Assembly (NCBI RefSeq): GCF_000227685.2
Contig: NZ_CP007029.1
Coordinates: forward strand, 124,001 to 188,000
Source: Thioalkalivibrio paradoxus ARh 1
GTDB taxonomy: Bacteria > Pseudomonadota > Gammaproteobacteria > Ectothiorhodospirales > Ectothiorhodospiraceae
DNA: 64,000 nucleotides
Direction of reading: 5' to 3'
Below the pieces are notes generated by a model. It saw nothing but the letters and a program-made list of their open reading frames with translations. It did no database searches and was not told the DNA's origin. Every line of letters begins with the position of its first letter. Position 1 is the stretch's first letter. A program made the translations under genes and the position numbers. This document shows, one piece after another, positions 32,506-43,472 of this stretch.

Positions 32506-33288
32506 TTACTTCTTGAACGCGACAAAGGTCGCGCCCTGAACGCCGAACTGGCGGGCTGCGCCTTCCTTGCTGGTGCCGGCGAAAGGATCGAAGTAGGCGA
32601 CGACCTGCGCACGTTCGAAACCTGCGTCGGCCAGTGCCGCGAGATAGCCTGCAGACTGCAGAGCCCCCGCGATTCAGCCAACCCAGAGTTCGATGTCGTT
32701 CTTCGCCGCCGCCGACAGCTCGGTCTGGATCACGATGTCGGCGAATTGCACGCGCCCGCCGGGGCGCAGCACGCGGTAGAGTTCGGAAAAGACGCGCGCT
32801 TTCTCGGGGCTCAGATTGATCACCCCATTCGAAATCGCCACGTCTACCGTTGCGTCGGCGATTGGCAGGTCGGCGATGTCTGCCTTGTCGAAACGGACAT
32901 TGTTCGCACCGGCGGCGGCAGCGCCCTCGGCAGCCGTGCGCAGCATCGCGTCGGTCATGTCGAATCCGATTACCTCGCCTTGCGGACCGACGCGGCGGGC
33001 GGCCAGCAGGCAGTCCATGCCGCTGCCGGCCCCGAGGTCGATCACCCGCGCACCGCGCGGCAGTTCCCCGGCATGAAACGGGTTGCCGACGCCCGCGAAC
33101 GGTGCCGTGACGGAGTCGGGCAAGGTGTCGAGTTCCGCCCGGTCGTAGCCGAGCCTCGACGCGGCGTATTCCGGACCGCGATGGAAATGGAAGTCGCCGT
33201 CCGGTTCCTCTGCGACCCGCGCGTAGGTGGTGCGGATCTCCTGTTTGAGTCGTTGCTGATCGAACGTCAGCTCGCAATCGTTCGTCAT
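32506..33288 (-). CDS. Probable selenocysteine-containing ArsM-like methyltransferase (TGA at codon 205)
   Basis: 260 aa if the in-frame TGA (32674-32676) is read as Sec205. Start ATG 33288 has a strong AGGAGGAGG site. Class I methyltransferase layout: VIDLGAGSGMDCLLAARRVG (SAM loop), VIGFDMTDAML, ADIADLPIADATVDVAISNG, VLRPGGRVQFADIV. The frame reads ...IELWVG-TGA-IAGALQ..., continues 55 codons without another stop (ending FVAFKK-TAA) and keeps family features (YLAALADAGFERAQVV). The paralogue at 40012-41241 has WVECVVGATV, with Cys where the TGA is; ArsM enzymes carry an As(III)-binding Cys at this place. A SECIS-like hairpin starts 2 nt after the TGA. A second ArsM cysteine (SNCVINL) is Gly here (SNGVINL), so the substrate may not be arsenite. 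The alternative is a nonsense pseudogene. Confidence 0.75.
32638..32671 (-). promoter_or_regulatory. Putative bacterial SECIS element
   Basis: On the minus strand, directly after the TGA: lower stem CGCG (32668-32671) with CGCG (32638-32641) extended by three weaker pairs. The apical 5-bp stem CTGCA/TGCAG (32649-32661) closes a GUC loop. The apical part starts 12 nt after the TGA and reads GCAGUCUGC, close to the GCAGGUCUGC apex of the E. coli fdhF SECIS, which starts about 11 nt after its UGA (from memory). Confidence 0.6.
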
Positions 33289-33636
33289 GGTCCTCCTCCT
33301 GGTGTCCGTTCCTTGCTGGTGGCATGAACGCCCGGTTTCCCGGGACTGCGGGACGGTTGCCCCGCGGTGCATCCGCTGGCGTTCCCGGGGAGCGGCCCTA
33401 TGGCCCCGCGTCAAGCGGGGATGAGGGCATCCGGCGCGGTGGGCCAGCGAAAATCGATCCTCTTGTTTCAAGGGACGCATCAGCCTTCGATAGGGTTCCC
33501 GGGTCGCTGCCCCCGTGGCTGTAGGGCTGAGGGGCGGCGGGAGCACGATGGCGTCGTGCACCTGCTCCGACCGGGCGGCCGTCGGTCGACGCTGCCGAGC
33601 GATCGCTTGGTGGCTTCCGTTCGCGGTCCATCGGGC
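33289..33636. other. Spacer, nothing beyond promoter space
   Basis: Upstream of the selenoprotein gene and downstream of the small minus-strand gene. No repeat or gene is supported. Confidence 0.4.
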
Positions 33637-34446: not shown

Positions 34447-34918
34447 GCCTGCGCCCGTCCTCCCGGCACCGTTGCCGCTCCTGACCCGCGTCGGCGAATG
34501 ACGGCCTTTGTCCCTTTCCGCCCTGCGCTCGCGGCCCACCCTGGGTAGGGCGGAAGAGCGCAGCGTCATCCGCCGATGGGAGTCAGCGCGATCCCCAAGC
34601 CCCTCGTGGACCCCGGAAGCGAATGGCGGATGACGGCCTTTGGCCTCTTCCGCCCTACCCGCGGACTCGATGACGGGCGTTGGGATCGGCCTTGTGTTGT
34701 CGCCGACCGCCGTGATCCACGGGCGGCGCGAGAACCCACCGCAATTCACCCGAGGGACTTTCGGCCGGCCCCGTTATGGGCTATTTTCGAGGTCACTTAA
34801 ACGCAAAGGGTAGTGTGCGTGACTCCCGGCGACAGCACCCCCGCGCCGGGAGACGTGCCGGCCCGTGGACGAGGAGCGATGTCGTCAAGCGGCGTCCCGA
34901 TCTGATGAGCGCGATCTC
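34447..34918. other. Intergenic, carrying repeat copy D
   Basis: 472 nt between the 114-aa gene and lutA. 34493-34666 is a doubled partial copy of the dispersed repeat. The lutA promoter is probably in 34670-34900 but no clear hexamers stand out. Confidence 0.45.
34493..34666. repeat. Dispersed repeat family, copy D (doubled hairpin)
   Basis: Contains GTAGGGCGGAAGAGCGCAGC then GTCATCCGCC, and GGCGGATGACGGCCTTTGGC then CTCTTCCGCCCTAC. These are the hairpin arms shared with copies A-C, here arranged as two half-units around 34553 and 34625. Confidence 0.75.
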
Positions 34919-35734
34919 ATGAGCGATGCGCGGCCGGAGTCGTCCGACACCAGCGGCGGCGGCAAGCCCAGAATCGGGCTGTTCGTCACCTGCCTCGCGG
35001 ACATCTACCGGCCGAACGTCGGGCTTGCGGCGGTCGCATTGCTCGAGCAGGCCGGGTGCACCGTGGAAGTGCCCGACACGCAGACCTGCTGCGGCCAGCC
35101 CTCGTACAACAACGGCGATCTCGCCGGTGCCGCCCGCACTGCGCGCCGCACGATCGAGGCCTTCGAGGATTACGACTACGTCGTCGTGCCGTCCGGCTCC
35201 TGCGCGGGGATGCTGCGCGACTACCCCCGCCTGTTCGAAGCCGAGCCCGGCTGGCGTCTGCGCGCGCGGGCGATGGCCGAAAAGACCCACGAGCTGATCT
35301 CGTTCCTGACCGACGTCCGCGGCATGACCACGGTCGACACCGCCTTCAGCGGCACGGCGACCTACCACGACAGTTGCCACGGGCTGCGCGCACTCGGAAT
35401 CAAGGAGCAGCCGCGCCGGCTGCTGGAAAGCGTGCGCGGGCTCGAGCTGCGCGAGATGGCGGATTCCGAGATCTGCTGCGGCTTCGGCGGCACGTTCTGC
35501 GTGAAATACCCCGAGATTTCGGGACGGATGGTCGCCGACAAGGCGGCCAGCATCGGCGCGACCGGGGCGAAGGTCGTGCTCGGCGGCGATCTCGGCTGCC
35601 TGTTGAACATCGCCGGCCGCCTCGGCCGCGAGGGCGGCGGGGTGAGCGTTTATCACGTCGCCGAGGTGCTCGCCGGCATCGCCGACGTCCCGGGACTCGG
35701 CGACCCGCCGAAGTCCCGCAGGGAAACGCGCTGA
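34919..35734 (+). CDS. lutA: L-lactate utilisation protein LutA/LldE (CCG-domain oxidoreductase)
   Basis: 271 aa from ATG 34919; an upstream GTG (34865) is possible. Two cysteine-rich CCG domains are visible: an N-terminal VPDTQTCCGQPSYNNGD and a C-terminal DSEICCGFGGTFCVKYPEIS, with PSGSCAGML and YHDSCHGLR contributing ligands. With LutB and LutC it forms the iron-sulfur L-lactate dehydrogenase complex, oxidising lactate to pyruvate. The order lutA-lutB-lutC with overlaps, plus a lactate permease downstream, makes the assignment firm. Confidence 0.93.
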   Translation: MSDARPESSDTSGGGKPRIGLFVTCLADIYRPNVGLAAVALLEQAGCTVEVPDTQTCCGQPSYNNGDLAGAARTARRTIEAFEDYDYVVVPSGSCAGMLRDYPRLFEAEPGWRLRARAMAEKTHELISFLTDVRGMTTVDTAFSGTATYHDSCHGLRALGIKEQPRRLLESVRGLELREMADSEICCGFGGTFCVKYPEISGRMVADKAASIGATGAKVVLGGDLGCLLNIAGRLGREGGGVSVYHVAEVLAGIADVPGLGDPPKSRRETR

Positions 35735-37164
35735 TGCAGCCGCTCAGCCACGCTTTCAAGAAACGCTCGGTCGCGGCATTGCAGGACGAGACGCTGCAGG
35801 TCGCGCTGCACCGGGCGAAGGACGGCTTCGCGGTCAAGCGCGCGAACGCGGTTGGCGGGTTGCCCGAGTTCGATGCGCTGCGCGACCGCGCGGTCGCGAT
35901 CAAGAACCACACGCTCGAGCACCTCGATTACTACCTGGAGCGTTACGCCGACGCGGTCGAGCGTAGCGGCGGCACCGTGCACTGGGCCGCAACCGCCGAC
36001 GATGCGCGGCGCGCCGTGGTGGAGATCTGCCGTGCCGCCGGCGCGCGCATGATCACCAAGGGCAAGTCGATGGTCGGCGAGGAGGTCGGCCTGAACGGGG
36101 CGCTCGAGGCGGCGGGGTTCGAGGTCGTCGAGACCGACCTCGGTGAGTACATCATCCAGCTCGCGAACGAGCCGCCGAGCCACATCATCGTTCCCGCGGT
36201 GCACAAGACGCGCGGGCAGATCGCCGATCTGTTCCACCAGCATCACCAGCAGTACGGGTTGACGCGCCGGCTCAACGAGGTGCCGGAGATGGTCAACGAA
36301 GCCCGGCAGGTGCTGCGCAGCAAGTATCTCGAGGCCGATGTCGGTATTACCGGCGCGAACTTCCTGATCGCCGAGACCGGCACCAGCGTGATCGTGACCA
36401 ACGAGGGCAACGGCGACCTGACCTGCTCGCTGCCGAAGGTGCACATCGTGATCACCGCGATCGAGAAGGTCGTTCCCACCGCCGAGGACGCGACCACGCT
36501 GATGCGCCTGCTCGCGCGCAGCGCGACCGGCCAGGACCTGACCACTTACACCACCTTCAGCACCGGTCCGAAGCGCCCCGGGGATCCCGAAGGTCCCGAG
36601 GAATACCACGTGGTGCTGGTCGACAACGGTCGCTCGACGATGCTCGCCGACGAGTTCCGCGAGATGCTGCGCTGCATCCGCTGTGGGGCCTGCATGAACC
36701 ACTGCCCGGTCTACGGGGCGATCGGCGGCCATGCCTACGGCTGGGTGTACCCGGGGCCGATGGGCTCGGTGCTGACGCCACTGTCGGTCGGGCTGAAGGA
36801 GGCGGGCAACCTGCCGAACGCCTGCACACTGAACGGGCACTGCGCCGAGGTCTGCCCGGTGCGCATCCCGCTGCCCGACCTGCTGCGCACGCTGCGCCAC
36901 CGCGAGTACCAGCTGAAGCTGGGCTTGAAGCCGCTGCGCTGGGGGCTTGCCGCCTGGCTCTGGTTCACCTCGCACCCGCGCATCTACCGTCTGGGCACGC
37001 GGGTGCAGGCGCGGATGCTCGCGCTGCTCGCGGGCCGCAAGGGCCGCTTCACCCGGATGCCACTCGCCGGCGGCTGGTTCCGCGGCGGGCGCGACCTGCC
37101 CGCGCCGCAGGGCGAGACCTTCATGGCGGTGTGGAAGCGCCGCCAGAAGGAGCGGGGCCGGTGA
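35734..37164 (+). CDS. lutB: L-lactate utilisation iron-sulfur protein LutB/LldF
   Basis: 476 aa; the ATG at 35734 shares one base with the lutA stop. The N-terminal DUF162/LUD domain has KNHTLEHLDYYLERY, MITKGKSMVGEEVGLN and NFLIAETGTSVIVTNEGNGD. Two [4Fe-4S] motifs follow: CIRCGACMNHCPVYGAIGGH (about residues 314-333) and CTLNGHCAEVCPVRIPLPDL (about 365-384). This is the electron-transfer subunit of the lactate dehydrogenase complex. The last segment is basic and helical. Overlaps lutC by 4 nt (GTGA). Confidence 0.95.
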   Translation: MQPLSHAFKKRSVAALQDETLQVALHRAKDGFAVKRANAVGGLPEFDALRDRAVAIKNHTLEHLDYYLERYADAVERSGGTVHWAATADDARRAVVEICRAAGARMITKGKSMVGEEVGLNGALEAAGFEVVETDLGEYIIQLANEPPSHIIVPAVHKTRGQIADLFHQHHQQYGLTRRLNEVPEMVNEARQVLRSKYLEADVGITGANFLIAETGTSVIVTNEGNGDLTCSLPKVHIVITAIEKVVPTAEDATTLMRLLARSATGQDLTTYTTFSTGPKRPGDPEGPEEYHVVLVDNGRSTMLADEFREMLRCIRCGACMNHCPVYGAIGGHAYGWVYPGPMGSVLTPLSVGLKEAGNLPNACTLNGHCAEVCPVRIPLPDLLRTLRHREYQLKLGLKPLRWGLAAWLWFTSHPRIYRLGTRVQARMLALLAGRKGRFTRMPLAGGWFRGGRDLPAPQGETFMAVWKRRQKERGR

Positions 37165-37814
37165 GCGGGCGCGACACCGTGCTGGCCGCGATCCGCCGCG
37201 GCCTCGGACGCGGCCCGCTGGGGGCCGACGCGCGACGGGCATTGGAACGCCGCCAGGGCGCGACCGACAGCGAGCTGCTGCTGCCGAGGCTGCCGCACGG
37301 GCCACTGGCGCAGGTGTTCCGCGCCGGGCTCGAAAAGGTCGCCGGGACGATGTCGGAACTCGAGTCGCTGGCCGAAGTGCCGGCCGCGGTGGCCGGTTAC
37401 CTGTCCAGCCATGGCCTGGGCCCCGAGGCGGCGGTGGCGCCGTCGCTGGCACAGCTCGACTGGGCCGGGGCGGGAATCGCCGCGAACGTCGGACCCACCC
37501 GGGGCGGCGACTATGCCGGGGTGAGCCTGGCCTGGCGCGGTGCCGCCGAGAACGGCAGCCTGGTGCTGCTGTCCGGCCCCGACGATCCGACCTCGCTGAA
37601 CTTCCTGCCCGACCACCACATGGTCGTGCTGCGCGCGGGTGATCTGGTGCCGCACCTGGAGCAGGTCTGGGCCGCGCTGCGCGAGCGGGGCCGGGACGGC
37701 TGGCCCCGGACCGTGAACGTGATCACCGGGCCGTCGCGTACCGCGGACATCGAGCTGACGATCCAGCTGGGTGCCCATGGACCGCGCAGCCTGCACGTGT
37801 TCCTGGTGGACTAG
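37161..37814 (+). CDS. lutC: L-lactate utilisation protein LutC/LldG
   Basis: 217 aa from GTG 37161 with AAGGAG at 37147-37152; upstream ATG 37131 is in lutB and less likely. LUD-domain protein: SGRDTVLAAIRRGLGRG start, IAANVGPTRGGDYAGVSLA, GAAENGSLVLLSGPDDPTSL, LPDHHMVVLRAGDLV and INVITGPSRTADIE-like end (here VNVITGPSRTADIELTIQLG). Third subunit of the LutABC lactate dehydrogenase; ends the operon 255 nt before the permease. Confidence 0.94.
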   Translation: MSGRDTVLAAIRRGLGRGPLGADARRALERRQGATDSELLLPRLPHGPLAQVFRAGLEKVAGTMSELESLAEVPAAVAGYLSSHGLGPEAAVAPSLAQLDWAGAGIAANVGPTRGGDYAGVSLAWRGAAENGSLVLLSGPDDPTSLNFLPDHHMVVLRAGDLVPHLEQVWAALRERGRDGWPRTVNVITGPSRTADIELTIQLGAHGPRSLHVFLVD

Positions 37815-37850
37815 GTCGATGAGGGGCCTCGTCAGAAGGGGGATCGGGGC

Positions 37851-37938
37851 GCCCTGTCTGCCGGCGGGGAGCCGTGAATACCTCCCTGTAGGCTTCACGG
37901 CAGCATCCCTGCTGCCGACACCCGCCGGAAGGCAGGGC
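37851..37938. repeat. Nested palindromic intergenic unit
   Basis: Outer arms GCCCTGTCTGCCGGCGGG (37851-37868) and CCCGCCGGAAGGCAGGGC (37921-37938), 16/18 complementary. Nested inside are CGGCAGCA/TGCTGCCG (37898-37917) and CCGTGAA/TTCACGG. Resembles a common gammaproteobacterial palindromic repeat; it could also form an RNA hairpin between lutC and the permease. Confidence 0.7.
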
Positions 37939-38069
37939 ACCCCGGTCCTTTCGGTTCTTGCGGCGCCCTGCTGTAGGCCCACAACCGCATTCTTCGCCAC
38001 GCGCCGGCCCGCTGCTTTCGGTCCGGAGGCGGCGGAGCCTGATACCAATAAGAACAGAGGAGCGAGTCC

Positions 38070-39842
38070 ATGAACCTGGGTATCCTGTTCCTGCTGGCAC
38101 TGATGCCGGTGGCCACGGTGTTCGTCTTCCTCGTAGTGCTGCGCTGGCCGGCCAAGCACGCGATGCCGCTGGCCTACGTGGTGACTGCGGCGATCGCGCT
38201 GCTGTTGTGGGGCACTGATTTCAAGGTGATCGCCGCCGCCAGTGTGCACGGCGTCGTCACGGCGCTGAATATCCTGTTCATCGTCTTCGGCGCGATCCTG
38301 CTGCTCTACACGATGCGCGAGAGCGGGGCGCTGCAGACGCTGCGCCAGGGGTTCACGAACATCTCGCCGGACCGGCGCATCCAGGCGATCATCATTGCGT
38401 GGATGTTCGGCTCGCTGATCGAAGGCTCCGCCGGTTTCGGCACGCCGGCGGCAGTTGCGGCACCGCTGCTGGTCGCGATCGGTTTCCCGGCGATGGCCGC
38501 GGTGCTCTCGGCGCTGATCATCCAGTCGACGCCGGTGTCGTTCGGCGCCGTTGGCACGCCGATCCTGGTCGGCGTGAACGCCGGCCTGTCGGGGCAGGAG
38601 ATCGTCGAAGGGCATATCGGCGACGTCGCCTTCGCCGACTACCTGCTGCAGATCGGCGGAAACGTCGCGTTGTTGCACACCCTGGTCGGTTTCCTGATCC
38701 CGCTGATCATGGTCGGCATGCTCACGCGATTCTTCGGCAAGTCGCGTTCGTTCCGCGAGGGCCTGAAGGCGTGGAAGTTCGCGCTGTTCGCAGGCGTGTC
38801 GTTCACGATTCCGTACCTGCTGGTCGCCTGGCTGCTGGGTCCCGAATTCCCGTCGATCGTGGGCGGCCTGGTCGGCCTCGCGATCGTCGTTACAGCGGCG
38901 AAGAAGGGCTTCCTGGTCCCGAAGGAAATATTCCAGTTCGAGGAGCGCAGCCGCTGGGAGCCCGAGTGGATCAGCCGCTTCCAGGATCAGCCGGACCCGG
39001 TCAGGACCGGTGCCGCGATCACGATGGTGCAGGCGCTGATCCCCTATATCGTCGTCGTACTCCTGCTGGTGATTACCCGGACCGTGGAGCCGGTCACCGC
39101 GTTCCTGCGCTCTCCGGAGATGACGCTGTCGTGGACCGGGATCTTCGGCACCAACATCAATACCTCGTCGCAGCCGTTGTACCTGCCCGGGGCAGTGCTG
39201 CTGGTTGCGTCGATCGTCACCTACTTCCTGCACAGGATGTATCGGGAAAAGGGTGCCTACGCCCGGGCATGGGGGCAGTCCGGCAAGACCATTCTGGGCG
39301 CCAGCGTGGCCCTGCTCTTTGCGGTGCCGATGGTGCAGGTGTTCATCCAGTCCGGGCAGGCGTCGGAGTACGCGAGCATGCCGCTGGTCCTGGCAGAGGG
39401 GGTTTCCGCGATGTCGGGGAGCGCCTGGCCGTTCTTCTCGCCGATCATCGGCGCGCTCGGCGCTTTCATCGCCGGTTCGAACACGGTCAGCAACATGATG
39501 TTTTCGCTGTTCCAGTTCGCGACTGCGGAGAGCATCGGGCTGGATGCGAACGGCGCCGCCTTCGTGGTGGCGTTGCAAGCGGTCGGCGGTGCCGCGGGCA
39601 ATATGATCTGCGTGCACAACGTGGTCGCGGCGTCGGCTACCGTTGGCCTGATCGGGCGCGAGGGTGACCTGATCCGCAAGGCGCTGATTCCGATGACCTA
39701 TTACGTGCTCGCGGCCGGTGCACTGGGTATGGCGATCATCTACGCCGCCACGCTCTGGTACGTCGTGTGGGTCGCGATCGTGGCCGCGTTCCTGCTGTTC
39801 ATGCTCTGGAACAAGGGCAGGCAGCCGGCCACCGCGGTCTGA
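38070..39842 (+). CDS. L-lactate permease (LctP family)
   Basis: 590 aa, about a dozen or more membrane helices. LctP hallmarks: early [60 protein letters not shown] (signature), [20 protein letters not shown], and C-terminal [20 protein letters not shown] and [20 protein letters not shown]. Imports L-lactate (and likely glycolate) with protons across the inner membrane. GAGGAGCG precedes the ATG. It follows lutABC in the same orientation, so uptake and oxidation are genetically linked. Confidence 0.95.
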
Positions 39843-40011: not shown

Positions 40012-41241
40012 CTACGGCGACTGCGCGCCCAGCCCCAGCAGCCTTGCCTGTTGCCGCCGGCGCAGCCAGATGTCCCAGCCCACCGCGCCGGCCAGGAACA
40101 CAAAGCCGGTCAGTTCCGTCAGCGCGTGGTAGTTCACGAACAGCGCGTAGACGATCACGCCGGCGCCGCCCGCGGCCAGCAGCGACGGACCGACCCCGCG
40201 GTGGCGGCGGAACCCGGGCACGACCGCCAGCGCCGTCAGCACCGCGAACAGTGCGATCGCCCCGGCCCAGATTCCTTCGTCGAGTGAGAGACCGATTCCG
40301 AGCACCGCGAGCAGCCCCAGCGCGGCCAGCGTGCCGTAGCAGGCCAGCAATGCGACCGCGAGCCCCAGCACGCCCGCGAAGCCCCGCCGCCACATCGATG
40401 CGGCCAGGCGCGCTGGACTGGCCCTCCGGAAGAACTGCGCGGTGCGCGACGGCGCACGATCACCACGGCGCATCGCGAGCTCGACCGAACGCGCCCCGAA
40501 GCCGGCGGCGACCTCGCGGGTCTGGCGGCTCGGGCTGTGGGCGAAATAGTCCCGCGAGCCCACTACCCGTATATCTTCGAACCCGGCGTCGCGAAACATG
40601 TGCAGCAGGTCCTCGTCGACCGTGGCGCCGACCACGCACTCGACCCAGAGGCGCGGATCCTCGGCGCAGTCGACGGTGACGGGCCGGTCGATCACCACGT
40701 CGGCGAGTTGCAGGCGCCCGCCAGGACGCAGCACGCGGAACATCTCGCCGATCGCGCGTCGCTTGTCCGGGACCAGGTTCAGCGCACCGTTGCTGGTGAT
40801 GCTGTCGACGCTCGCATCTGCCAGCGGCAGCGCCTCTGCCGAACCCCGGATCACGCTGACCGGAGCGCCCCCGGATTCGCTGGCGGCGTGCCGGAGCTTG
40901 CGGGTCATCGCCGTGGTCAGGTCGAGTGCGACCACATGTCCGTCGGGGCCTGCCAGTTGGCCTGCGATCAAAGTATCGACGCCGGCCCCGGCGCCGACGT
41001 CGAGCACGGTGTCCCCGCGCTGGACGGCTTCGCCATTGAAGGGGTAACCGACGCCGGCGAAGGACTCCTGCACGGCGCGTGGAAGGGGGGCGGTGCGCTC
41101 GCTCGGATAGCCGACCAGCGCGCTGGCAGAGGCCCCGACCGGGAAATGGAAGTGCGAGTCGGGGTGGTCGGCCACGGCGGTGTACATGTCCTGCACCGCC
41201 GAGTGAATCTGCTCCCGCGAGTAACCGAGTATGGCGACCAA
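40012..41241 (-). CDS. ArsM-like methyltransferase fused to a MerC-like membrane domain
   Basis: 409 aa. The start is TTG at 41241, supported by GGGAGGA 7 nt upstream. Residues 1-250 are a class I methyltransferase (VLDVGAGAGVDTLIAGQLAG; VVALDLTTAM; SITSNGALNL; VLRPGGRLQLADVVID), closely related in plan to the selenoprotein at 32.5 kb, with Cys in WVECVVGATV at the Sec position. Residues about 280-400 contain four hydrophobic helices (AGVLGLAVALLACYGTLAAL; AGAIALFAVLTALAV; LLAAGGAGVIVYALFVNY; GFVFLAGAVGWDIWL), resembling the MerC-type tail seen on some methyltransferases. A metal/metalloid or thiol substrate is plausible. It lies 103 nt after the ECF/anti-sigma genes, same strand, likely one operon. 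Confidence 0.75.
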   Translation of the reverse strand: MVAILGYSREQIHSAVQDMYTAVADHPDSHFHFPVGASASALVGYPSERTAPLPRAVQESFAGVGYPFNGEAVQRGDTVLDVGAGAGVDTLIAGQLAGPDGHVVALDLTTAMTRKLRHAASESGGAPVSVIRGSAEALPLADASVDSITSNGALNLVPDKRRAIGEMFRVLRPGGRLQLADVVIDRPVTVDCAEDPRLWVECVVGATVDEDLLHMFRDAGFEDIRVVGSRDYFAHSPSRQTREVAAGFGARSVELAMRRGDRAPSRTAQFFRRASPARLAASMWRRGFAGVLGLAVALLACYGTLAALGLLAVLGIGLSLDEGIWAGAIALFAVLTALAVVPGFRRHRGVGPSLLAAGGAGVIVYALFVNYHALTELTGFVFLAGAVGWDIWLRRRQQARLLGLGAQSP

Positions 41242-41344
41242 GGCGGAATCCTCCCTGTCGTTGTCTCGAACCAGAGAGTCTAGCAGCGCTGGGCCGGAGG
41301 CCCGTCGGGTATTCGGGTGGCCCGCCGCCGGGGTTTCCCCGCCC

Positions 41345-41581
41345 TCAGAACCGCTCGATCAGGCGCCGCACTCGACGCCGCAGCCGCGGCGGTGCTTCGT
41401 CCTCGGCGGCTGCGTGAACGCGTGCACGCAGCTTCTTCTCGAACTCTGCGCGGCTGAAGCATTCCCGGCAGCGTTCGAGGTGGCGGTCGATGTCGCTGGT
41501 CCGGCTTGGATCCAACTCGCGGTCCAAATACTCGAAGAGGAGCCGAATGACCTCCTCGCAGTTGATTTCGTGTGCCGTCAT
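41345..41581 (-). CDS. Zinc-finger anti-sigma factor (ZAS)
   Basis: 78 aa. Has the HxxxCxxC signature (HLERCREC) of zinc-binding anti-sigma factors, preceded by a helix with INCEEVIRLLFEYLDRELD, and a basic C-terminus. No membrane helix, so a soluble redox/zinc-responsive type like RsrA/ChrR is likely. Its ATG overlaps the sigma gene stop by 4 nt, giving coupled synthesis of sigma factor and inhibitor. Confidence 0.88.
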   Translation of the reverse strand: MTAHEINCEEVIRLLFEYLDRELDPSRTSDIDRHLERCRECFSRAEFEKKLRARVHAAAEDEAPPRLRRRVRRLIERF

Positions 41582-42228
41582 CGCGTCTTCCCGTGCCCCG
41601 TCGCACCGGGATCCAATCCTTCCTCCCGAGCGATCTCCCAGAGACGGTGTTGCAGCAGACTGCGCCCCCGGCTCAGGCGCGAGCGCACGGTCCCAACCGG
41701 GATTTCGAGCAGACCGGCGACTTCCTCATAGGTATGCCCCTGCACCTCGACCAGCACGACGACGATACGAAATGCGTCCGGCAGGCTGTCGAGTGCCGCC
41801 TGCAGGTCCTCCCGGAGCAGATCGTTCAGGAAACGCTCCTCCGGGGTTCCCCACCACAGCAGGAACGGCTGGTGCAGTTTCTCGAACAGCGAGAAGTCCG
41901 CGACCGCGGACGGATCGGCAATCTCGGGATCGGTGTGCTGCTCCACCTGGCTCCGTGTCCTGTGGCGGCGCCACGCGCTGATGAACGTATTGTTCAGTAT
42001 ACGGAACAGCCAGCCCTCGAGGGATCCCGCGTCACGCAGGTCTCCGAAACTGGCCCAGGCCTTCGCCACCGTCTCGGCGACGATGTCTTCGGCGTCGTCC
42101 GGATCACCCGCCAGGCGCAGGGCCGTGCCATAAAGGCGATCCATGAGCCGATCGACCGTCCTTTCGAAGATGTCCCGACGCTCGCTCCTGCCGAGAGATC
42201 TCGCATCGTCTGCGCCTGGGTCCGCCAT
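41578..42228 (-). CDS. ECF-type sigma-70 factor
   Basis: 216 aa from ATG 42228; an upstream ATG (42321) adds an Arg-rich piece. Region 2: RLYGTALRLAGDPDDAEDIV, AKAWASFGDLRDAGSLEGWL and RILNNTFISAWRR. Region 4: LDSLPDAFRIVVVLVEVQGH, YEEVAGLLEIPVGTVRSRLS and RGRSLLQHRLW. Directs RNA polymerase to stress promoters, held by the adjacent ZAS protein. The insert between regions 2 and 4 is long and contains HQPFLLWWGTPEE. Likely senses oxidative or thiol stress (inference from the anti-sigma type). Confidence 0.93.
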   Translation of the reverse strand: MADPGADDARSLGRSERRDIFERTVDRLMDRLYGTALRLAGDPDDAEDIVAETVAKAWASFGDLRDAGSLEGWLFRILNNTFISAWRRHRTRSQVEQHTDPEIADPSAVADFSLFEKLHQPFLLWWGTPEERFLNDLLREDLQAALDSLPDAFRIVVVLVEVQGHTYEEVAGLLEIPVGTVRSRLSRGRSLLQHRLWEIAREEGLDPGATGHGKTR

Positions 42229-42655
42229 GACAAGCCTTGTACCGATCCTCCATCGTTCGCGGTCCCTGCCGGAACGGGGTCCGGCACGTCGCCTGGTCAA
42301 GACCATCGGTGACTCGATCATGGATCATTCCGCAGGGGCGCGCCAACGCGGCACCTGCGGATCGGCGATTCATCCGTCGCCATTTCGGGCGCAACGCAGA
42401 TCTTCCTAGGGCAGGGGTTTGCTTTTCCCAAGGGGCATCTGTGGTGTCCTGATTGTCGTGGACACCTCGATAGGATGCGAAAGGATGTTCGGCGAGAGAT
42501 TGCCGTTGCTGCGTGCACCGTCCGGGCAGTCGTCAAGGGTTCCTGCTTCCCGGGGTTCCCGAAAGCCCTATCCGCGACGAGAAGCGGCGTGCGGTTCCGA
42601 TCACCCACCGCACGCCTGCCTCCTCGTTCCGTTCAGGTCCGGATTATCCCCCCGC
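42229..42655. other. Intergenic, probable ECF operon control region
   Basis: Between the DUF302-gene end and the ECF sigma start, both on the minus strand. No gene or repeat found. An autoregulated ECF promoter would be expected here, but I could not identify one reliably. Confidence 0.4.
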
Positions 42656-43099
42656 TCAGTCGAACACGGTGTCCAGCATCGCTTCGAAGGCGGGCAGGGC
42701 CTTGTCCCCCGCCCTCTCGAGGTTGGGATCGGGATAGAGTTCGTTCATGAAACGCGGATGCAGCAGTGACATCCGGGTGATGTCTCCTTCCTCGTAGATC
42801 GCGAGGTTGCCGCAGGGCAGCATCGCGGACGCCTTCATGTCCGCCTGGAAGAAGTCCGGGCCGATCGGCGGGTAGCAGATCTTCATGATCGTCACTTCTC
42901 CTCCCTTCAATGGGTGCTCCGAGAGGAACAGCCAGTCGTCGTGCCCTTCCGCATATTGCCGGATCCTGGCGGCGAGTTCCGCGGGCGAGTCGGTGGTATC
43001 GCGGATGATGAACATCCCGTCGTCCGCGGTGGCGACCGATACGTGGGTGAAGGCCGTCAGACAGCCGGCAACCAGCATGCTCGTGGTCAGGTGTTTCAT
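42656..43099 (-). CDS. Exported DUF302-family protein
   Basis: 147 aa from ATG 43099, with AGGAGGAG upstream. N-terminal signal peptide (MKHLTTSMLVAGCLTAFTHV; a Cys lies inside the hydrophobic stretch, so a lipoprotein cannot be excluded). The mature part matches the DUF302 plan: FIIRDTTDSPAELAARIRQY, VTIMKICYPPIGPDFFQADM, AMLPCGNLAIYEEGDITRMS and a final helix. DUF302 proteins are common in sulfur-oxidising bacteria; biochemical role unknown. It is divergent from the AhpD-Rieske fusion gene (373-nt gap). Confidence 0.8.
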   Translation of the reverse strand: MKHLTTSMLVAGCLTAFTHVSVATADDGMFIIRDTTDSPAELAARIRQYAEGHDDWLFLSEHPLKGGEVTIMKICYPPIGPDFFQADMKASAMLPCGNLAIYEEGDITRMSLLHPRFMNELYPDPNLERAGDKALPAFEAMLDTVFD

Positions 43100-43472
43100 G
43101 CGTGCTCCTCCTTCGTTGTGGTTCGGATCGACCTGCACGCGCCGCGTGCGAGATCCGGTCCCCGGTGCGCGGGTGTAGCCCGAGGTGCTGCAGGGACGCG
43201 CGAGACGCCCGGAGGGTTCCCGGGCGTGGTTCGGTTCCCGCTGCATGGACAGGTCTGCCCGGAAAAGGCGCGCGCACCTCGCTTCGCCGGATCCCTCGGC
43301 TGGCCGCGAACCAGAGCGTTCGCCGCCACGAACGCCGGGCAGGGGCGGGGCCGACTGCCATAGCGCCCCCTTGCCGGAGCGGCCTATGGCTCCGCGCCCG
43401 GCGCGTCCCTACAATCGTGGTCATCTCCCTCAACCCGAACCCCGGTTCGCCAGTCAGGAGTGGTACATCACC
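43100..43472. other. Divergent promoter region, DUF302 / AhpD-Rieske
   Basis: 373 nt between two divergent genes. No coding sequence supported; no clean sigma-70 hexamers. A shared ECF-type promoter is conceivable given the neighbouring sigma factor. Confidence 0.4.

Follow-up and report, generated by a model that had tools for sequence, protein, structure and literature searches.

Does an in-frame TGA in a methyltransferase gene of Thioalkalivibrio paradoxus ARh 1 encode selenocysteine (Sec), and if so, what might the resulting enzyme do? The gene lies in a 64,000-nucleotide stretch of contig NZ_CP007029.1 (positions 124,001 to 188,000), here called the window; coordinates are those of the window except where the whole genome is discussed. 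It codes for an ArsM-like class I SAM methyltransferase and is on the minus strand (32506-33288), with an ATG start, a TAA stop, and a Shine-Dalgarno-like sequence that is a good match (AGGAGGAGG, 33292-33300, minus strand) immediately 5′ of the ATG. The 260-codon frame, from 33288 to 32506, yields 260 amino acids if its one TGA is read as Sec. A first-pass annotation of this DNA had described a single TGA at 32674-32676 followed by 55 codons without a further stop up to the TAA, and rereading the frame gave the same result, with the TGA at codon 205.

The same annotation took the open frame past the TGA as a cue for readthrough. The open frame is certainly present, but as an argument it is weaker than it looks: of the 38 predicted ORFs in the window that end in TGA, 14 (the present gene included) continue for at least 55 open codons, a count resting on a crude ORF set for a G+C-rich window. 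Since long post-TGA extensions are so common here, the open frame alone carries little weight, and the selenoprotein claim rests instead on conservation and on the Sec machinery of the genome.

This machinery, proposed in the first pass as something to look for, is present in full. In the 3.76-Mb genome, selA, selB, tRNA-Sec (selC), and selD form one cluster (genome positions 2528976-2537768). Profile searches of the organism's own genome place selA at 2528976 (583 bits), selB at 2530352 (465 bits), and selD at 2536839 (413 bits); tRNA-Sec, for which 150 candidates were scored per genome, is at 2532502 (78.4 bits), and its anticodon is TCA according to ARAGORN. A second selD match over the cut-off (L013, C1:1145820-1146737, 306 bits) lies within an 896-aa open frame and is perhaps a SelD fusion. 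A gene for formate dehydrogenase alpha (L083, C1:2518344-2521388), some 8 kb ahead of selA, contains one in-frame TGA and so gives the genome a second selenoprotein gene, of a classical type.

The TGA at codon 205 is shared by the window gene and all nine of its intact close homologues (71-86% identity), which are labeled Thioalkalivibrio, Hydrogenophilales, Rhodocyclales, and Sulfuritalea, and once Planctomycetota or unnamed. One further entry (L039) is apparently the same contig as L015 and was not counted. Cys occupies the position in a paralogue within the window and in 22 other, more distant sequences, or 23 of 23 non-canonical sequences (those outside canonical ArsM, defined below) besides the ones with TGA. 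Homologues had been suggested as a check on this codon; those sampled have TGA or Cys there, and nothing else. Ratios of nonsynonymous to synonymous change (dN/dS) are 0.12 before the TGA and 0.13 after it (codons +12 to +54), with synonymous sites near saturation. In these aligned genes, purifying selection on the protein is equally strong on either side.

The selection analysis included 10 of 12 sequences with TGA. One of the other two, L046, is an additional copy from the Sulfuritalea assembly that also contains L044; it keeps the TGA, but its frame is broken, being lost within the hairpin described below. The other, L019 (G047:C126), is only distantly related (~42% identity); its TGA falls on the same codon, and the hairpin it has lacks the bulged U and is unexceptional in folding energy (z −0.53). 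In its assembly selA was not detected, and the best tRNA-Sec match is a tRNA-Ser, leaving its TGA a candidate Sec codon only, and an unproven one. In a tree of 45 sequences, one per locus (the set used also for the active-site counts below; L039, L046, L035, and L062 were left out), the 10 Sec sequences group together with support of 99/100, while L019 is separate on a long branch. With the deepest forks at 25/51, the tree fits either one or two gains of Sec. A sequencing error, or the recent nonsense mutation of a gene in decay that the broken L046 copy might suggest, is scarcely credible as the origin of the TGA when the same codon recurs in 10 intact genes of various assemblies, with dN/dS at ~0.12-0.13.

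The hairpin that the first-pass annotation saw beyond the TGA, with GCAGUCUGC at its apex and at the distance expected of a bacterial SECIS element, is also there (minus strand, 32637-32672, core 32647-32664). Its core is GC-(bulged U)-CUGC-AGUCU-GCAG-GC. In the predicted fold the first and last bases of AGUCU pair with each other, giving the order stem, bulged U, CUGCA, loop GUC, UGCAG, stem, with a minimum free energy (MFE) of −18.9 kcal/mol (z −2.48; six of 200 shuffles fold equally well). Bacterial SECIS rules, as quoted in the accessible part of PMC13188914 and applied here by hand, agree with its 3-nt loop GUC, its 5-bp stem, its distance of 17 nt from the UGA, and its MFE. An Rfam search of the hairpin region gave three matches, each far under its gathering score.

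Two further comparisons, besides the fold, support reading the hairpin as a SECIS element. At codons +4 to +10, 285 of 306 synonymous comparisons are identical (93%), the top value among 240 seven-codon intervals, against 3491 of 6470 (54%) upstream and, past the hairpin codons, 792 of 1431. Such synonymous constraint, as read from the alignment, is characteristic of an RNA element within the coding sequence. The second comparison is with the formate dehydrogenase gene, whose hairpin lies about as far from its own UGA: stem, bulged U, GGCCA, loop GUC, UGGCC, stem. Both hairpins follow the plan 2 bp, bulged U, 5 bp, loop GUC. Across two unrelated genes, then, the folds have their unpaired parts in common, and their stems differ with pairing kept. 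On energy alone the formate dehydrogenase hairpin is unexceptional (z −1.47; 18 of 200 shuffles as good). The plan with an AGUCU tip, a pattern defined after both hairpins had been seen, occurs once on the two strands of the window, at the selenoprotein gene, and 40 first-order simulations gave no instance of it.

If the TGA were instead a true stop, the gene would produce a 204-residue protein and the remainder would go untranslated. The many open extensions past other TGA codons in the window would suit this explanation, but it does not account for the purifying selection downstream, the kept TGA, the constrained hairpin, or the sel genes, and the short form would be missing two strands of the predicted fold (see below); it is very improbable. 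A real stop, a pseudogene, and a sequencing error were all rejected on the conservation of the TGA and the purifying selection past it. The gene almost certainly encodes a 260-residue selenoprotein with Sec at codon 205, in the motif U-I-A-G, the TGA being kept in close homologues and replaced by Cys in others. The first-pass call of a selenoprotein is thus strongly supported, by the sel genes, the kept TGA, the constrained hairpin, and the selection past the TGA. SelB acting on the hairpin past the UGA would bring Sec-tRNA to codon 205, the machinery for this being present. Annotations of the gene probably give a 204-residue protein, without its active-site residue and last two strands, and if so they should be corrected.

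The distribution of the gene was compared with that of the Sec machinery. Within the genus, selA was found in four of 30 genomes, some of which are incomplete assemblies, and these four are also the ones with the TGA gene; beyond these 30, two genomes of the same family (G030 and G036) have selA and no TGA gene. In one genome (G017) selA and a SelB gene follow immediately downstream of the TGA gene, in the same orientation. Among six genomes reached via other loci, selA was found in four and tRNA-Sec in five. The assembly with L043 has tRNA-Sec, and selA was not detected in it; in the assembly with L040, neither was detected. The L040 gene, on a contig labeled Planctomycetota, is 80% identical to that of the window, and its neighbor in the tree is a Hydrogenophilales gene. 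Given an assembly without detected selA or tRNA-Sec, this contig may be misbinned.

As for the protein itself, it can be called a SAM methyltransferase with considerable confidence. It matches Pfam Methyltransf_31 (4.5e-32), and Pfam, an AlphaFold2 model, and Foldseek all indicate the Rossmann-like methyltransferase domain of class I enzymes. The model, built with seven sequences, has a mean pLDDT of 89.2 and is mostly confident past residue 205 (ten-residue means 85-96). Its last two strands (226-233 and 251-258) follow residue 205, and according to the model a 204-residue product would be without both. Foldseek's top 12 matches in the PDB are all ArsM or human AS3MT, led by ArsM 4fr0. By NCBIfam, the match to NF008823 (arsenite methyltransferase) scores 233.3 bits, under the cut-off of 263.

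ArsM is reported to bind arsenite through three cysteines, and PDB titles name ArsM mutants in two of these (C72A and C224A). In an alignment with CmArsM (positions counted by hand), C224 corresponds to Sec205, C174 to Gly155, and C72 to Val67. The replacement of the second Cys by Gly had been pointed out in the first pass and is confirmed as Gly155; the third ligand, C72, is also gone. The same division runs through the tree set. All 11 canonical sequences have Cys at all three ligand sites. In the 34 non-canonical ones, position 67 is Val in every case, position 155 is Gly in 33 and Ala in one, and position 205 is Cys or Sec in all 34. Beyond these sites a single Cys or His reaches 80% conservation or more among them, His34 (32 of 34); in the selenoprotein it is part of an F-H-F motif at 33-35 that is absent from the 11 canonical sequences. 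The sampled sequences outside canonical ArsM therefore keep, as aligned, just one of the three arsenic ligands (C224/Sec205). With Cys at C72 or C174 in none of 34, the label arsenite methyltransferase should not be given to every ArsM-like gene, and for the window gene a canonical ArsM identity was rejected, two of its three ligands being missing.

Relatives are also found on plasmids. Plasmid-record searches gave 65 and 67 matched records, whose best places were all below 60% identity. The four opened, one alphaproteobacterial and three haloarchaeal, have His, Val, Gly, and Cys at the sites discussed above, the last in place of Sec, and no internal stop.

The first-pass annotation considered this a new selenoprotein, which it is not in kind. 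A Sec-containing arsenite methyltransferase was already in a 2008 survey (PMC2398784, accessible part), and one with the motif UxxG, which U205-I-A-G208 fits, is tabulated as a family along with three fusion families in the part of PMC13188914 available. Compared by its description in that table, the stand-alone family (NF008823/PRK11873, UxxG, example WP_011987699.1) has the same Sec motif; the window selenoprotein differs in its sub-threshold score and perhaps in the loss of two of three ArsM ligands. The fusion families are NF041537 (ArsM/AhpD), NF041536 (ArsM/DUF2284), and NF047649 (methyltransferase/UXPK-star), all with UxxG as the listed motif in the same part of that source. They are among the four best NCBIfam matches of both the selenoprotein and its paralogue, over the methyltransferase part. 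The selenoprotein falls well outside them, however (216.7 bits vs. a cut-off of 510, 205.3 vs. 575, and 196.8 vs. 460, respectively): they are longer and listed with two or three Sec, whereas it is stand-alone with one. With ArsM and AS3MT of known structure (4fr0, 5evj, 8xt7) it shares the fold, the SAM domain, and the placing of Sec205 at C224; it differs in the changes from C72 to Val67 and from C174 to Gly155, and in the F-H-F at 33-35. What is distinctive is the branch, by its loss of two of three arsenic ligands, rather than the kind. A literature search on Sec ArsM by title and abstract opening, covering open articles and so excluding most subscription journals, turned up none describing this branch.

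Could the selenoprotein nonetheless be an ordinary arsenite methyltransferase, with Sec for one Cys and stepwise methylation of inorganic As(III) as in ArsM? ArsM is nearest to it by both sequence and fold, and Sec members with UxxG are filed under that name in reviews (PMC13188914, accessible part). Against this, arsenite is reported to be bound by three cysteines, methylarsenite by two, and dimethylarsenite by one (PMC3877260, accessible part), and two of the three are replaced here, C72 by Val in all 34 non-canonical sequences and C174 by Gly in 33. The accessible part of PMC5552862 describes C72, C174, and C224 as conserved in its collected ArsM sequences, a set that had been selected for at least three of four such cysteines. 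An ordinary arsenite methyltransferase is improbable.

Compared with cysteine, selenocysteine would allow faster ligand exchange and tighter binding of soft substrates. The reading preferred here is that the protein is probably a SAM methyltransferase in which the selenolate of Sec205 binds a soft substrate, either metalloid or chalcogen; that Sec205 acts directly, as substrate ligand or nucleophile, is likewise somewhat favored by the evidence. The first-pass proposal that Sec would bind or react with a metalloid or thiol substrate is reasonable, and the chemistry may be new, as was suggested there. As proposed, the selenolate would be the sole remaining one of three chalcogen ligands, Val67 and Gly155 having replaced the other two. 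It would hold by one bond a soft substrate, whether an As(III)-type species that is thiolated or partly methylated or a species of Se or Te, with the conserved His34 perhaps assisting in substrate binding, and SAM would then methylate the bound substrate as a detoxification step. Since arsenite reportedly takes three cysteines and dimethylarsenite one (PMC3877260, accessible part), a one-ligand site would suit a mono-liganded substrate better than arsenite. Much more tentatively, an enzyme with a single selenolate and a histidine (Sec205 and His34) might finish the methylation of organic or mono-liganded metalloid or chalcogen species to volatile products, for example of dimethylarsinous or telluride-type species. 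If so, its chemistry would differ from arsenite methylation and be common to the sigma-factor-linked, MerC-fused paralogue described below, and the AhpD, DUF2284, and UXPK selenoprotein fusions perhaps use it as well.

A role in thiol or oxidant stress, and not in arsenic metabolism, fares better than ordinary arsenite methylation, although it too is unlikely. The substrate methylated would be a thiol, selenol, sulfide, or telluride, or else Sec205 would be a redox residue, and for chemistry of this sort one conserved chalcogen suffices. OsmC adjoins the Cys relatives in three of three haloarchaeal records examined, of many matched, which favors thiol chemistry somewhat; one of these relatives is also near a carboxymuconolactone decarboxylase gene, and the related NCBIfam family NF041537 is fused to AhpD. 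However, the relatives that adjoin OsmC have ~41% identity and are outside the Sec branch, the nearest structures are of metalloid enzymes, and the residue retained is an arsenite ligand.

The paralogue within the window (40012-41241, minus strand; identified by Pfam, NCBIfam, and alignment) has Cys at the Sec205 position and is fused to a MerC-like membrane domain; its sequence WVECVVGATV aligns with that position, as the first pass had it. It belongs to the same non-canonical group: its three ligand sites carry Val, Gly, and just one Cys, and it has the F-H-F motif. It differs from the selenoprotein in having Cys in place of Sec and the extra MerC-like domain, and in adjoining a sigma-70-family factor and a zf-HC2 protein. 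A single-ligand Sec enzyme and a natural Cys paralogue in one genome make a clean test bed for the benefit of selenium.

The genes around the paralogue (40012-42321, minus strand) place the MerC-fused methyltransferase downstream of the zf-HC2 protein and the sigma factor, whose two-region make-up we read as that of the ECF type. A sigma factor, a zf-HC2 protein, and a member of this methyltransferase group occur together in six of the 17 loci with gene tables, two of them from this genus, and on the Chelatococcus plasmid, source of the alphaproteobacterial relative, a sigma factor and a zf-HC2 gene adjoin the methyltransferase as they do in the window. No literature on an ECF/MerC/methyltransferase module was found by title.

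Less can be drawn from the surroundings of the Sec gene. Ten window proteins near it were scanned, with no matches to an arsenic family, and its gene arrangement is common to G010, of the same genus. Gene tables were made for 17 of 28 loci by crude ORF picking, and neighbors elsewhere are mostly unnamed by search. Outside the genus, L040, L041, and L042 each have a member of one cluster close to the gene, a zinc-binding dehydrogenase according to Pfam in L041 and L042; apart from the methyltransferase and shadow ORFs, this is the only neighbor cluster common to the Sec loci examined there. Between the two methyltransferase paralogues of the window, on the plus strand (34865-39842), are lactate utilization genes (a CCG-domain protein, a LUD/4Fe-4S protein, and a LUD protein) and an L-lactate permease, in an arrangement similar to that in G010. 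Near the sigma factor is a gene for a DUF302 protein (42659-43246, minus strand; a weak match, 24.0 bits vs. 23), whose cluster is also found beside a related methyltransferase in L064.
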